In this document: one piece after another, positions 24,820-29,400 of the stretch
Layout of the letters: every line of letters begins with the position of its first letter
Numbering within the stretch: position 1 is the first letter of the stretch
Origin: a virus
DNA length: 29,651 bases
Direction: 5' to 3' (one strand)
IMG/VR virus record: IMGVR_UViG_3300046474_000317
Location: 1-29,651 of that record
Notes under the pieces: model-generated
The model's input: the letters and a program-made list of their open reading frames with translations, nothing else
What the model was told of the DNA's origin: nothing
The model's database searches: none
Made by a program: the position numbers and the translations under genes

Positions 24820-25926
24820 TTACTGCACGGGGAGTCCCTTCATTTCTGAGCGCTTTCGAAACGCCGAACGAATGGCGCGCTGCGCAGGAACTTCAAACAG
24901 CCGGTGACTCGCAAAACTCAACGCGATCAAAATCGCCATAAATAATGCGAGCATCCAAGAATTATAAAAAATGTCTCGGTCATAACCTAGATGGTCAACT
25001 GTCATTGCAAAGCATAGTTGCAGAGGGAAGTGCAGCAGATATGACGAATAGCTGATATCGCCAATAGCCGCGAAGGGCTTCATAAAGTTTGTATATTCGA
25101 ATCCTATTGCGGCGAACGTCATAACCGATAGCGGGTAGGCTATCCCCATAAGGAAATAGATGTTCATAGTTGGTGACTGCCAAATATACGCCCAAGCTGC
25201 TATCGTGAACACCAGTGCAGTGAAGGCAATAGATTTCATGCTGACGTACCTGGCCATGTAGTCCAGAACGAAATAGGCAGCACCTCCGCAAAAAAATGTG
25301 AATATGCCGCTACCAAGTTTGTACTGGCTCGGATAAATGTAAGCCCCCAGGGCTATCAGGCAAGGGATCAGTAGGTAGCGCAGGTTGCGGGTCAAGCAGA
25401 CAACGAAGAAGGCGCCATAAAGCAGGGCTTCTACCGACACGGACCAGACCGGCGCGTTGAATGACCAGCCCTTCTCAAAGCCCCAAGCAGGCATCAGGAA
25501 GAGGTTCAGGACGGCATGATAGAGGTCATTCGTTTGGTACACAAAAAACGAGTCATGATGACGAGTGAACAGATACTGGAGCAATGCCACCATTAAGAAC
25601 GTTGCTATATGAAGTGGGTACAGTCGACTAACTCGGTCAATGAAAAAACGAGATGGTGTAATGGTGCGGGCAGCAATTTGTTTAGAGAAAAGCCAGGTAA
25701 ACACAAAGCCGGATATGCAAAAGAAAAGCTCAACAGCAAGCGAGCCATGCATATAGAAAAATGAAAGCGCACTGAATACTGGTTGCTTCCAAATTGTGAA
25801 GTTATGTGGTTGGCCACCCACATAAAAAAAGTGTTGCCAGTGCCAGAATACGACCGACAGTGCGGCCACTCCACGTAGTACGTCAAGTGAGTAAATTCTA
25901 TCCGCCGCAACGGGTTGTTTGCTCAT
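24820..25926 (-). CDS. Acyltransferase-3 family membrane O-acyltransferase (probable lysogenic conversion gene)
   Basis: The 368-residue protein has about ten membrane helices and acyltransferase-3 landmarks. These are IYSLDVLRGVAALSVVFWH (R18 and H29 of the active-site helices), GSLAVELFFCISGFVFTW, and RVSRLYPLH. Phage-encoded members often add acetyl groups to O-antigen or other surface sugars, changing serotype and blocking superinfection. The actual substrate here is unknown. The gene runs against the late operon, starts at ATG 25926 with a weak GGA signal, and its DNA is much less GC-rich than the tail genes. It stops 7 bases from the chaperone stop with no strong terminator between. It is flanked on its upstream side by an endolysin remnant. 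Confidence 0.88.
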   Translation of the reverse strand: MSKQPVAADRIYSLDVLRGVAALSVVFWHWQHFFYVGGQPHNFTIWKQPVFSALSFFYMHGSLAVELFFCISGFVFTWLFSKQIAARTITPSRFFIDRVSRLYPLHIATFLMVALLQYLFTRHHDSFFVYQTNDLYHAVLNLFLMPAWGFEKGWSFNAPVWSVSVEALLYGAFFVVCLTRNLRYLLIPCLIALGAYIYPSQYKLGSGIFTFFCGGAAYFVLDYMARYVSMKSIAFTALVFTIAAWAYIWQSPTMNIYFLMGIAYPLSVMTFAAIGFEYTNFMKPFAAIGDISYSSYLLHFPLQLCFAMTVDHLGYDRDIFYNSWMLALFMAILIALSFASHRLFEVPAQRAIRSAFRKRSEMKGLPVQ

Positions 25927-26715: not shown

Positions 26716-27267
26716 ATGCCGATCACTCAGCAGCAACTGCTGCAGATTCTCCCGAACGCCGGCAAACAAGCCGGCGTTTTTGCGTCTGCGCTGAACCTGG
26801 CCATGGACCGGTACCAGATCAACACCCGGTCGCGCATGGCCGCTTTCATCGCCCAGGTTGGTCATGAGTCGGGTCAGTTCCGTTACGTGCGGGAGCTCGG
26901 CGGTGACCAATATCTGAGCAAGTACGACACCGGCCCGCTGGCCAAGCGGTTGGGCAACACACCCGAGGCTGATGGCGACGGGCAGAAGTACCGCGGGCGC
27001 GGCCTGATCCAGATTACTGGGCGCGACAATTATCTGGCCTGCAGCAAGGCGCTGTTCGGCGATGACCGATTGCTCCGCACGCCTGAACTGATCGAGCGGG
27101 CCGAGTGGGCAGCGAAGTCTGCAGCGTGGTTCTGGAATTCGCGCAACCTCAACGCTCTGTCCGATGCCGGCGACTTCATAGGCATAACCCGGCGCATCAA
27201 CGGCGGCACGAATGGCTTGGCCGAGCGCCAAGCGTTCTACAGCACCGCGTTGAAGGTGCTGGCATGA
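26716..27267 (+). CDS. Endolysin, glycoside hydrolase family 19
   Basis: The 183-residue protein is a compact GH19 (chitinase-fold) lysin that cleaves the glycan strands of peptidoglycan. Likely catalytic acids are E51 (GHESGQF) and E60 (YVRELGG). The family signature YRGRGLIQITGRDNY lies at 92-106, and SAAWFWNSRNLN with ITRRINGGTNGLAERQAFY closes the fold. There is no signal peptide, so it depends on a holin to reach the wall. GGAGAG lies 7 bases before ATG 26716. The gene is about 22 kb from the holin candidates and overlaps the Rz gene by 4 bases. Confidence 0.93.
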   Translation: MPITQQQLLQILPNAGKQAGVFASALNLAMDRYQINTRSRMAAFIAQVGHESGQFRYVRELGGDQYLSKYDTGPLAKRLGNTPEADGDGQKYRGRGLIQITGRDNYLACSKALFGDDRLLRTPELIERAEWAAKSAAWFWNSRNLNALSDAGDFIGITRRINGGTNGLAERQAFYSTALKVLA

Positions 27268-27779
27268 CGTCGATCTGGATGAGGGTTCTTCCTTATATAG
27301 CTGCCGTGCTCGTGGCGGCGGCCGTGCTGTTTGGCGCCTATCACCACGGCGTGACCGTCACGGACGAAAAGTGGCAGTCCGAGTGGAACAACCGCGACAC
27401 TCGGGACGTAAAGGCGAGGGCGCTCAATGAGGCAGCTGCACGCACCAAAGAGCAGGCCTACCATCAATCAATCAACAAGGCGGTACAAGATGGCCGGCGC
27501 ATTATCGATCAAGCGACGGCTGATGCTACCGCCGCTCGCGCTTCTGCTGACAGCCTGCGCGGGGCAGCAGACGCCCTTGCCGCTCAGCTCACAGCCAGTG
27601 AAGCCAGCGGCAATTCCTGCACTGCCGCCGCAAGCAAGGCAGCTGCCCGCGCCACAGTGGTGCTTGCCGACGTGCTCAAGCGCGTTGACCAGCGAGCGGG
27701 TGACTTGGCTGCGATTGCTGACCAAGCCCGAGCCCGGGGACTGACTTGCGAGCAGGCTTATGACGGGCTCGGGCGTTAG
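27264..27779 (+). CDS. Rz: Rz-like inner-membrane spanin
   Basis: The 171-residue protein has an N-terminal signal-anchor (residues 9-27, LPYIAAVLVAAAVLFGAYHHG). A periplasmic domain rich in Ala, Gln and charged residues, probably coiled coil, follows (RALNEAAARTKEQAYHQSINKAVQDGRR). Two Cys residues lie in the C-terminal half. The size, layout, position directly after the endolysin and a nested lipoprotein frame are diagnostic of Rz. With Rz1 it fuses inner and outer membranes in the last step of lysis. The ATG overlaps the endolysin stop; the open frame extends further upstream only inside the endolysin. Confidence 0.9.
   Translation: MTSIWMRVLPYIAAVLVAAAVLFGAYHHGVTVTDEKWQSEWNNRDTRDVKARALNEAAARTKEQAYHQSINKAVQDGRRIIDQATADATAARASADSLRGAADALAAQLTASEASGNSCTAAASKAAARATVVLADVLKRVDQRAGDLAAIADQARARGLTCEQAYDGLGR
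27490..27744 (+). CDS. Rz1: Rz1-like outer-membrane lipoprotein spanin, nested in Rz
   Basis: This 84-residue frame lies wholly inside Rz in the +1 register. It begins MAGALSIKRRLMLPPLALLLTAC, a short basic start and hydrophobic signal ending in an LTAC lipobox, so C23 would be lipidated. The mature part opens with a Pro-rich stretch (QQTPLPLSSQPVKPAAIPALPP) as in lambda Rz1. AAGGCGG lies about 7 bases before ATG 27490. An upstream ATG at 27427 gives a longer frame but would place the signal internally. The lipobox, proline content and nesting together make this call secure. It has 62 residues after processing, in the range of known Rz1 proteins. Confidence 0.88.
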   Translation: MAGALSIKRRLMLPPLALLLTACAGQQTPLPLSSQPVKPAAIPALPPQARQLPAPQWCLPTCSSALTSERVTWLRLLTKPEPGD

Positions 27780-27790
27780 CCGTCCGGATT

Positions 27791-28117
27791 TTATGGGGCA
27801 CGCTTATCCAGCTCCGCCTGCAATTGCCGGCGCAGCGTTTCATTTTGGGACTGGACCAGTCTAAGGCTGCTGAGCTCACGCAATTGCTCAGTCGTTTCCG
27901 CTTCGAGGTTCGCCATCCATACCCGCTTCTTTTGGAGTTCGGCTGACAGCTGGTCGTTCATTTCGACAAGGGTGGAAATGTTTTCCTTCGCAGCTTGCAG
28001 CTGCCGCCTCAACTCCTCGATGTCCACCTCGAGCATATGGGCGTAATGCTTGACGGTTTCCAGCCTGGTCGGACTGTCGAGCCAGTCGCTGGTGTCTTCG
28101 ATTTCGTAGGGGTCCAC
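27791..28117 (-). CDS. LexA-controlled coiled-coil protein, unknown function
   Basis: The 108-residue protein starts at GTG 28117, with AAGGCG about 7 bases upstream. After an acidic start (MDPYEIEDTSDWLDSP), residues 20-108 are almost entirely charged and leucine-rich helix (LEVDIEELRRQLQAAKENISTLVEMNDQLSAELQKK), predicting a coiled coil and self-association. A perfect LexA box lies 18-37 bases before the start, so the gene should be induced by DNA damage together with the prophage. It converges on Rz with 11 bases between them. Function is unknown; its position at the prophage edge and SOS control hint at a role in excision, host take-over or cell division, which is inference. Confidence 0.72.
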   Translation of the reverse strand: MDPYEIEDTSDWLDSPTRLETVKHYAHMLEVDIEELRRQLQAAKENISTLVEMNDQLSAELQKKRVWMANLEAETTEQLRELSSLRLVQSQNETLRRQLQAELDKRAP

Positions 28118-28133
28118 GGTTGCGCCTTACGGA

Positions 28134-28153
28134 TACTGTTTGGATATACAGTA
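28134..28153. promoter_or_regulatory. LexA (SOS) operator
   Basis: TACTGTTTGGATATACAGTA contains CTGT-N8-ACAG (28136-28151) and the outer TA/TA pairs of the extended consensus. It is a near-perfect match to the LexA site of gamma-proteobacteria. It lies just upstream of the GTG start of the minus-strand gene at 28117, where LexA would overlap the promoter. No plus-strand gene begins nearby. Confidence 0.85.
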
Positions 28154-28458
28154 AACGAGGCTTCGGATTTTCGCGAGGGTATTGCGACGAGGCGACTTTG
28201 ATTTGGGGATTTCGAGTGGCAGAACGCCAAAGAGGGCTGGGCCAATTCTTGGGCCAATTTATTGGGGAATGGCGGAGGGCCGCGGGGAATTCCTGAGGCT
28301 GGATCCTAGGATTCAGTGGTCGGAATCCCCGCTCAACCCCGTGTCGACGTCATAATTAAATGTCGCGTCTATCCACTTGCATGGATGCAGCCGGCTCATT
28401 TCAGCCGCTCGCAGGTGGCCTGAACCGGCCATGAGGGGGTATGCCTCTGCGATTCTCG
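28154..28458. other. Non-coding stretch at the right end of the prophage
   Basis: No credible gene is seen in these 305 bases. They hold a directly repeated TGGGCCAATT (28238-28247 and 28250-28259, 12-base period), a GGATCCTAGGATTC near-palindrome around 28301, and an inexact inverted pair GGGGAATTCC (28284) and GGAATCCCC (28322). Short direct repeats of this kind near a phage attachment site can be recombinase arm-binding sites, but there is no direct evidence. Confidence 0.4.
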
Positions 28459-28833
28459 TCACGGTTCGTGCCATTCGGTGACAGTGCGGCTCTTGGCATC
28501 AAAATGCACCCGCCCGCTGTCCGAATCGCCGTAGTGCCAAATCGTAAAGGTGCCGAACGCATCTACTTTCGTAGGGCTACCGAGCAACCTTTCCACCTCT
28601 GCCTCCGATAGCCCCTTTTGAAGCCTTCGCCAGTTAACCTTGTCTGGTGAAATGGAGGGCGCAGCATTTCGCTGGCGTAGTTGATCTTCAAGTGTGGCCA
28701 CACGGCGCTCCAAGATTCGAACGGTTTCCTCAAGTTTATCCATTCGAGATTCGGCGCTCGACTGCGCAAAGACCTGTCCGTTGGAAGTGAAGAGCAAGAC
28801 GGAAAGTGCAAAAAGATAACGATATGCAATCAC
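28459..28833 (-). CDS. Exported coiled-coil protein with BamE/OmlA-like domain
   Basis: The 124-residue protein starts at GTG 28833, behind AGGAG with 6 bases of spacing. Residues 1-23 form a signal peptide (YLFALSVLLFTSNGQVFA, probable cut before Q24). Residues 28-56 are a coiled coil (MDKLEETVRILERRVATLEDQL). The C-terminal part (WRRLQKGLSEAEVERLLGSP, then WHYGDSDSGRVHFD) follows the SmpA/OmlA pattern: a helix with G-L/M-S-E-x-E-V, LLG-x-P, and short strands. There is no lipobox, so it should be periplasmic. The host BamE is a lipoprotein of the outer membrane assembly complex; here the role is unknown. It is probably a cargo gene expressed in the lysogen. Confidence 0.75.
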   Translation of the reverse strand: MIAYRYLFALSVLLFTSNGQVFAQSSAESRMDKLEETVRILERRVATLEDQLRQRNAAPSISPDKVNWRRLQKGLSEAEVERLLGSPTKVDAFGTFTIWHYGDSDSGRVHFDAKSRTVTEWHEP

Positions 28834-28927: not shown

Positions 28928-29137
28928 TCACTCCGGCGTCATCAGCACCGCGAGCGTCAGCTTGATAAATTCTTCGTTCTTATCGATGGTGTCCAGGGCG
29001 CCACGCACGTTGTCGGCGACGTCGGCCGCACCGCGCTGCTCGACCCAGTTTGAAAGCTCCAGGATGGCGGCTTCGAGGGCGAGCTGATTTTCATTGATCT
29101 TGAACAGCAGGGAAGGGAGCAGGTCTGAGTTGGGCAT
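28928..29137 (-). CDS. Small helical protein near the prophage end, unknown function
   Basis: The 69-residue protein starts at ATG 29137, behind AGAGGA with 7-8 bases of spacing. The frame is open upstream to 29329, but that part has no matching start signal. It reads MPNSDLLPSLLFKINENQ, then a helix LALEAAILELSNWVEQRG, and a second amphipathic part with DVADNVRGALDTIDKNEEF and ends LAVLMTPE. It appears to be a compact all-helical protein without membrane segment or Cys. It is the last gene before the attachment site. Small proteins of this sort recur at the ends of Pseudomonas prophages, but I know of no assigned function. Confidence 0.7.
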   Translation of the reverse strand: MPNSDLLPSLLFKINENQLALEAAILELSNWVEQRGAADVADNVRGALDTIDKNEEFIKLTLAVLMTPE

Positions 29138-29354: not shown

Positions 29355-29400
29355 CATGGGGTGCTAGGGGTCGAGTGTTCGAATCACTCCGTCCCGACCA
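29355..29400 (+). tRNA. 3' fragment of tRNA-Pro(GGG) = prophage attachment site
   Basis: From the anticodon loop (CATGGGGTG, anticodon GGG) to the encoded CCA end these 46 bases are the 3' part of a proline tRNA. The GCTAGGG side of the anticodon stem, the T-arm GAGTG-TTCGAAT-CACTC and the acceptor strand CGTCCCG followed by ACCA are all present. The sequence before 29355 does not contain the acceptor 5' strand CGGGACG, a D-arm, or the left half of the anticodon stem. This is therefore a partial copy, as left at one end when a phage integrates into a tRNA gene. The intact gene is expected at the other prophage end. Confidence 0.85.

Follow-up and report, generated by a model that had tools for sequence, protein, structure and literature searches.

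A conserved SOS locus of Pseudomonas prophages with an undescribed coiled-coil gene under predicted host LexA control

Introduction

Prophages usually sense DNA damage through their own repressor, and the SOS response itself can be tuned by modulators such as DinI, which act by RecA/LexA binding. Several prophage genes are described as standing directly under host LexA. The Gifsy antirepressors and Tum of coliphage 186 are small, lie away from the immunity region and target repressors that are not cleaved (Gifsy layout, PMC3121763). In the Pseudomonas putida KT2440 prophage gene PP3901, a LexA box, TACTGTCTATGCATACAGTA, stands 17 nt before a GTG start; the gene is reported to be regulated by LexA1 and LexA2, DNA-damage inducible and required for the induction of other prophage genes (PMC4595014). 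SRAP proteins (YedK/HMCES) form a further point of comparison. They are tied to SOS repair, have also been noted in prophages, and are described in the excerpted source with UmuCD, ImuAB-DnaE2 or DinB partners (PMC3765255), while YedK acts at abasic sites (PMC9436759).

Here we compare with these systems a locus in a viral contig of 29,651 nucleotides (IMG/VR record IMGVR_UViG_3300046474_000317, positions 1 to 29,651; hereafter the window). The left part of the prophage and its own repressor gene lie off the contig. A sequence-only reading had pointed to a near-perfect LexA box at the prophage edge, directly upstream of the GTG start of a 108-residue coiled-coil gene (27791–28117), for which we use the label LXG, and had proposed that host LexA controls this gene directly.

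Results and discussion

The prophage end carrying LXG comprises the following features.

About 29356–29400, no strand given: 3′ end of a tRNA-Pro, presumed core of the attachment site at this prophage end
28928–29137, minus strand: 69-aa phrog_12397 protein, in relatives usually adjacent to LXG on its upstream side
28459–28833, minus strand: 124-aa protein with a weak BamE-like domain and a likely signal peptide, between phrog_12397 and LXG, with a relative in locus L029
28134–28153, minus strand: LexA (SOS) box, perfect TACTGT-N8-ACAGTA, reading TACTGTATATCCAAACAGTA on the gene strand, conserved in relatives
28118–28133, minus strand: short 5′ leader from box to start codon, with the ribosome-binding site AAGGCG
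27791–28117, minus strand: LXG, 108-aa coiled-coil protein with the acidic conserved N-terminal peptide MDPYEIEDTSDWL, GTG start
27264–27779, plus strand: Rz-like spanin (DUF2514) closing the late operon, convergent with LXG across an 11-nt gap
26716–27267, plus strand: endolysin (GH19)

ARAGORN detected no complete tRNA in the window, and the tRNA-Pro is represented by its 3′ part. With LXG on the minus strand, transcription leads away from the attachment site, as had been claimed. The window integrase (565–1917, from 640 by family match) is an early-region gene flanked by a VRR-NUC gene (209–640) and an antiterminator Q-like gene (2238–2591). It is thus distant from the tRNA-Pro end, unlike in relatives such as L018, in which an integrase is found just upstream of LXG. 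Within the tail/lysis region, an inverted gene on the minus strand (24820–25926) encodes an acyltransferase similar to phage O-acetyltransferases, likely a surface-modifying gene of lysogenic conversion.

The box proved to be perfect: TACTGTTTGGATATACAGTA at 28134–28153 matches TACTGT-N8-ACAGTA at 12 of 12 positions, and 16 nt separate it from the GTG at 28117, which places it directly upstream of the gene as described. A scan of the whole 29.6-kb window revealed no second site with fewer than three mismatches. We considered that the box might be a chance palindrome, or an operator of the phage repressor instead of LexA's, as LexA binding is here predicted from the sequence. This is hardly credible, because base composition gives an expectation of ~0.001 perfect sites per 29.6 kb, the box is kept across more than 100 loci, and it is of the same type as the boxes of lexA, recA, yebG and umuD within the genus.

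Conservation was assessed in a first set of 45 relatives from viral contigs and genomes, with a readable upstream region in 44. All 44 carried the box ~15–20 nt before the start codon, with CTGT and ACAG both intact in 42, and further Pseudomonas loci obtained by profile search showed it in 29 of 30 cases (degenerate in the thirtieth); these counts are drawn from related viruses and do not represent independent events. The profile search, which replaced a protein-guided scan of genome contigs that needs exact peptides and gave only 3 loci, detected the LXG family in 125 of 398 Pseudomonas species (one genome per species) and in none of the 368 other Gammaproteobacteria among the sampled genomes.

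Host SOS genes provided a second line of evidence. A P. putida genome with an LXG relative contains just two perfect 12/12 sites in ~7 Mb, one belonging to LXG and the other to a radical-SAM gene resembling PA0069, a known LexA target in P. aeruginosa. In this genome a slightly looser motif, CTGTAT-N6-ACAG, precedes lexA, recA, yebG and umuD (names assigned from translations) as well as three DUF1654 genes. LXG therefore combines CTGT-N8-ACAG near the start codon, retention of the box in orthologues and a box type shared with known SOS genes of the genus (in this one P. putida genome), the three marks by which membership of the SOS regulon was judged. The host-type motif at the P. putida SOS genes is the strongest available sign, below the level of direct binding, that the LXG site is recognized by LexA. 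With the box kept in relatives and the same motif at host SOS genes, the proposed control of LXG by host LexA is strongly supported and, as a prediction from sequence, near certain. LXG would consequently respond before, or independently of, loss of the phage repressor.

In one P. putida genome, each of three DUF1654 genes (L090, L093 and L094) lies close behind a LexA-type box, an arrangement suggesting that DUF1654 may be a general SOS family in Pseudomonas. PP3901, a prophage gene with a LexA box and in this respect like LXG, was considered as an orthologue and rejected: mapping its published primers to a prophage contig of P. putida showed that it encodes a DUF1654 (PF07867) protein. The PF07867 domain is absent from LXG, and no LXG gene occurs in the PP3901 stretch examined.

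The gene order around LXG recurs among relatives, typically as phrog_12397, LexA box, LXG, optional SRAP and then lysis genes on the opposite strand. By its sequence features this appears to be a conserved SOS locus of Pseudomonas prophages, with the attachment side on one flank and the lysis genes on the other. Classification of the downstream gene in 139 non-identical LXG loci placed SRAP directly 3′ of LXG in 46, commonly within ~60 nt, whereas lysis genes follow directly in 65; the window is of the latter type, with LXG running into Rz and no SRAP downstream, unlike SRAP operons. SRAP stands further out in 2 other loci, is fragmented in 4 and occurs as a short divergent version in 4. Its presence changes at least 24 times on a tree with poor resolution. 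Given these changes and the many loci in which SRAP is not adjacent, SRAP is an optional partner on which LXG does not depend. The locus thus resembles published SRAP operons in joining an SOS box to SRAP, also in prophages and often as the second gene behind LXG, and differs from them in its partners, as neither LXG nor phrog_19595 (see below) is among the contexts given in the excerpted source (PMC3765255). SRAP remnants 3′ of LXG in L015, L022 and L025 indicate loss of SRAP or its replacement by other genes. One contig (L012, 1723–6929) carries two LXG genes ~4.9 kb apart with an endolysin between them, perhaps reflecting adjoining prophages or a duplicated locus.

The tail-to-tail arrangement raises the alternative that the transcript is the working product and delays lysis when SOS transcription runs into Rz and the endolysin. 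The frequency of directly downstream, opposite-strand lysis genes speaks for such a role, as does the short gap in the window, where the sole terminator-like site is weak and oriented along the plus strand. Nevertheless, SRAP or other genes stand between LXG and the lysis genes in many relatives, and constraint at the protein level is strong. Compared with relatives at 72–83% identity, LXG shows dN of ~0.11–0.19 against dS of ~0.4–2. This makes a working transcript very unlikely; it also identifies the reading frame as a real gene, since dN is well below dS, and places the protein under purifying selection.

LXG is thus conserved, with recurring gene neighbours, and its sequence divides into two parts. 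The near-invariant start MDPYEIEDTSDWLGSPT.LE is common to relatives, and the coiled-coil remainder is variable. An AlphaFold model shows a single helix over residues 18–106 with a less ordered N-terminus. Hydrophobic residues occupy 64% of the a/d heptad positions versus 17% elsewhere, and both features agree with the coiled coil that had been read from the sequence. The protein also proved undescribed, as supposed: no curated family in Pfam, PHROGs or NCBIfam covers it, and the searches gave weak coiled-coil matches only. A search of solved structures returned a single weak match, CP12, and neither fold nor family matches indicated a biochemical activity. From the constraint on the N-terminus, we infer a dimeric rod with a docking peptide formed by the first 25 residues.

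Column conservation among relatives uncovered a second element upstream of the box, CGTCGC-N4..9-TCGC, together with a CCTCGAT stretch. Their counterparts in the window are:

28154–28160, minus strand: CCTCGTT, the window's version of the CCTCGAT stretch, directly adjacent to the box (by column conservation)
28173–28177, minus strand: inner part of the second element, CTCGC
28184–28189, minus strand: outer part of the second element, CGTCGC

CGTCGC was present in 55 of 74 upstream flanks and the complete two-part element in 49, whereas neither occurred in any of 74 control stretches taken from further upstream. We scanned viral contigs with the second element and the TACTGT half-box as the only query, which yielded at least 119 sites. 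Among the matches listed, all 119 contained the complete CTG-N10-CAG; 89 of these 119 precede LXG (two of them with a truncated or disrupted frame and a third with an unusual start) and 30 precede phrog_19595. The phrog_19595 protein is unrelated to LXG (241 aa, with a C-terminal CxxC...CxxC four-cysteine motif) yet occupies the same locus behind the same promoter, usually with SRAP downstream. It was detected in 38 of 398 Pseudomonas species. It serves as alternative first gene in L098–L216 (e.g. L099, 3333–4055, minus strand), and a LexA box likewise accompanies its distant members in two phages of P. aeruginosa. A fold search with phrog_19595 gave no significant match.

The second element is absent near nine box sites of host genomes, including those of lexA, recA, yebG, umuD and DUF1654 genes. 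A standard sigma-70 promoter scan gave no match on the LXG strand, where TATAT inside the box is a candidate −10 only. Possible roles of the element are those of an activator site, a stand-in for the missing −35, or a Rho-type insulator against read-through, the last being considered because it is C-rich and G-poor. As a tentative extension, CGTCGC/TCGC and the LexA box might together act as a portable promoter module for SOS expression, driving a dedicated locus of Pseudomonas phages in which unrelated families can take the place of the first gene. LXG would then be a founding member of a new class of factors that are active in the SOS phase and use the acidic N-terminal peptide to dock onto a conserved Pseudomonas protein, and the second element would be bound by a further regulator or act as an insulator. 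We regard this combination as possible rather than probable.

What LXG does once derepressed was approached by comparison with known SOS-controlled phage factors. A LexA-controlled antirepressor of the Tum or Gifsy type would induce this or other resident prophages by binding their repressors. LXG has the corresponding layout, being small, LexA-controlled and outside the immunity region (PMC3121763), and induction of other prophages is reported to require the LexA-controlled P. putida prophage gene PP3901 (PMC4595014). However, PP3901 is a DUF1654 gene, and we found no sequence relation of LXG to the Gifsy antirepressors or Tum. The Gifsy antirepressors act on non-cleaved repressors, whereas the repressors of VW-6S and PseuP_222, both of which carry LXG, contain an S24 self-cleavage domain (the window's repressor is off contig). 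Moreover, the N-terminal peptide is near-invariant across phages with quite different repressors. We consider an antirepressor quite unlikely; the S24-type repressors of the two LXG phages examined make an accessory factor the likelier of the two.

Alternatively, LXG could bind RecA or LexA and thereby tune the SOS response itself, in the manner of DinI or of gp7 of GIL01, setting the speed of prophage commitment. LexA control and small size fit such a modulator, the conserved acidic segment would suit binding to a conserved host protein, and phage modulators of LexA exist, gp7 among them (PMC4551915). Against it, none of the libraries searched revealed a resemblance of LXG to DinI, PsiB or gp7, in sequence or in structure, and we view a modulator as unlikely.

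We hypothesize instead that LXG is an SOS-phase accessory factor. In the lysogen, host LexA would occupy the box overlapping the LXG promoter and keep the gene off. Upon DNA damage, activated RecA would lead to LexA cleavage, and LXG would be transcribed as part of the earliest SOS wave, alongside phage-repressor cleavage but not by way of it; in about one third of relatives, SRAP would be co-transcribed downstream. The dimeric coiled coil, likely contacting a conserved partner through its acidic N-terminal peptide (residues 1–25), would help the phage to cope with a damaged host and template as induction starts, and SRAP would contribute by shielding abasic sites in single-stranded DNA. Dimerization and the conserved partner are deduced from the protein sequence and model. 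The DNA-damage role, taken as a separate claim, is plausible, at somewhat less than even confidence, and the explanation as a whole, an SOS locus under host LexA with LXG as its accessory factor, is the one we cautiously favour.

Conclusions

LexA regulation of prophage genes of this kind is already known; the LXG and phrog_19595 families and their SOS locus are new. A locus found in about one third of Pseudomonas species would tap host LexA directly, and in phages whose repressor is apparently self-cleaving, this direct tap implies an advantage of early action, or of action in cells that never proceed to lysis. It connects both the undescribed LXG family and a second, unrelated family with SRAP, and thus with the handling of abasic sites, and offers a clean, directly testable promoter with a second conserved element.
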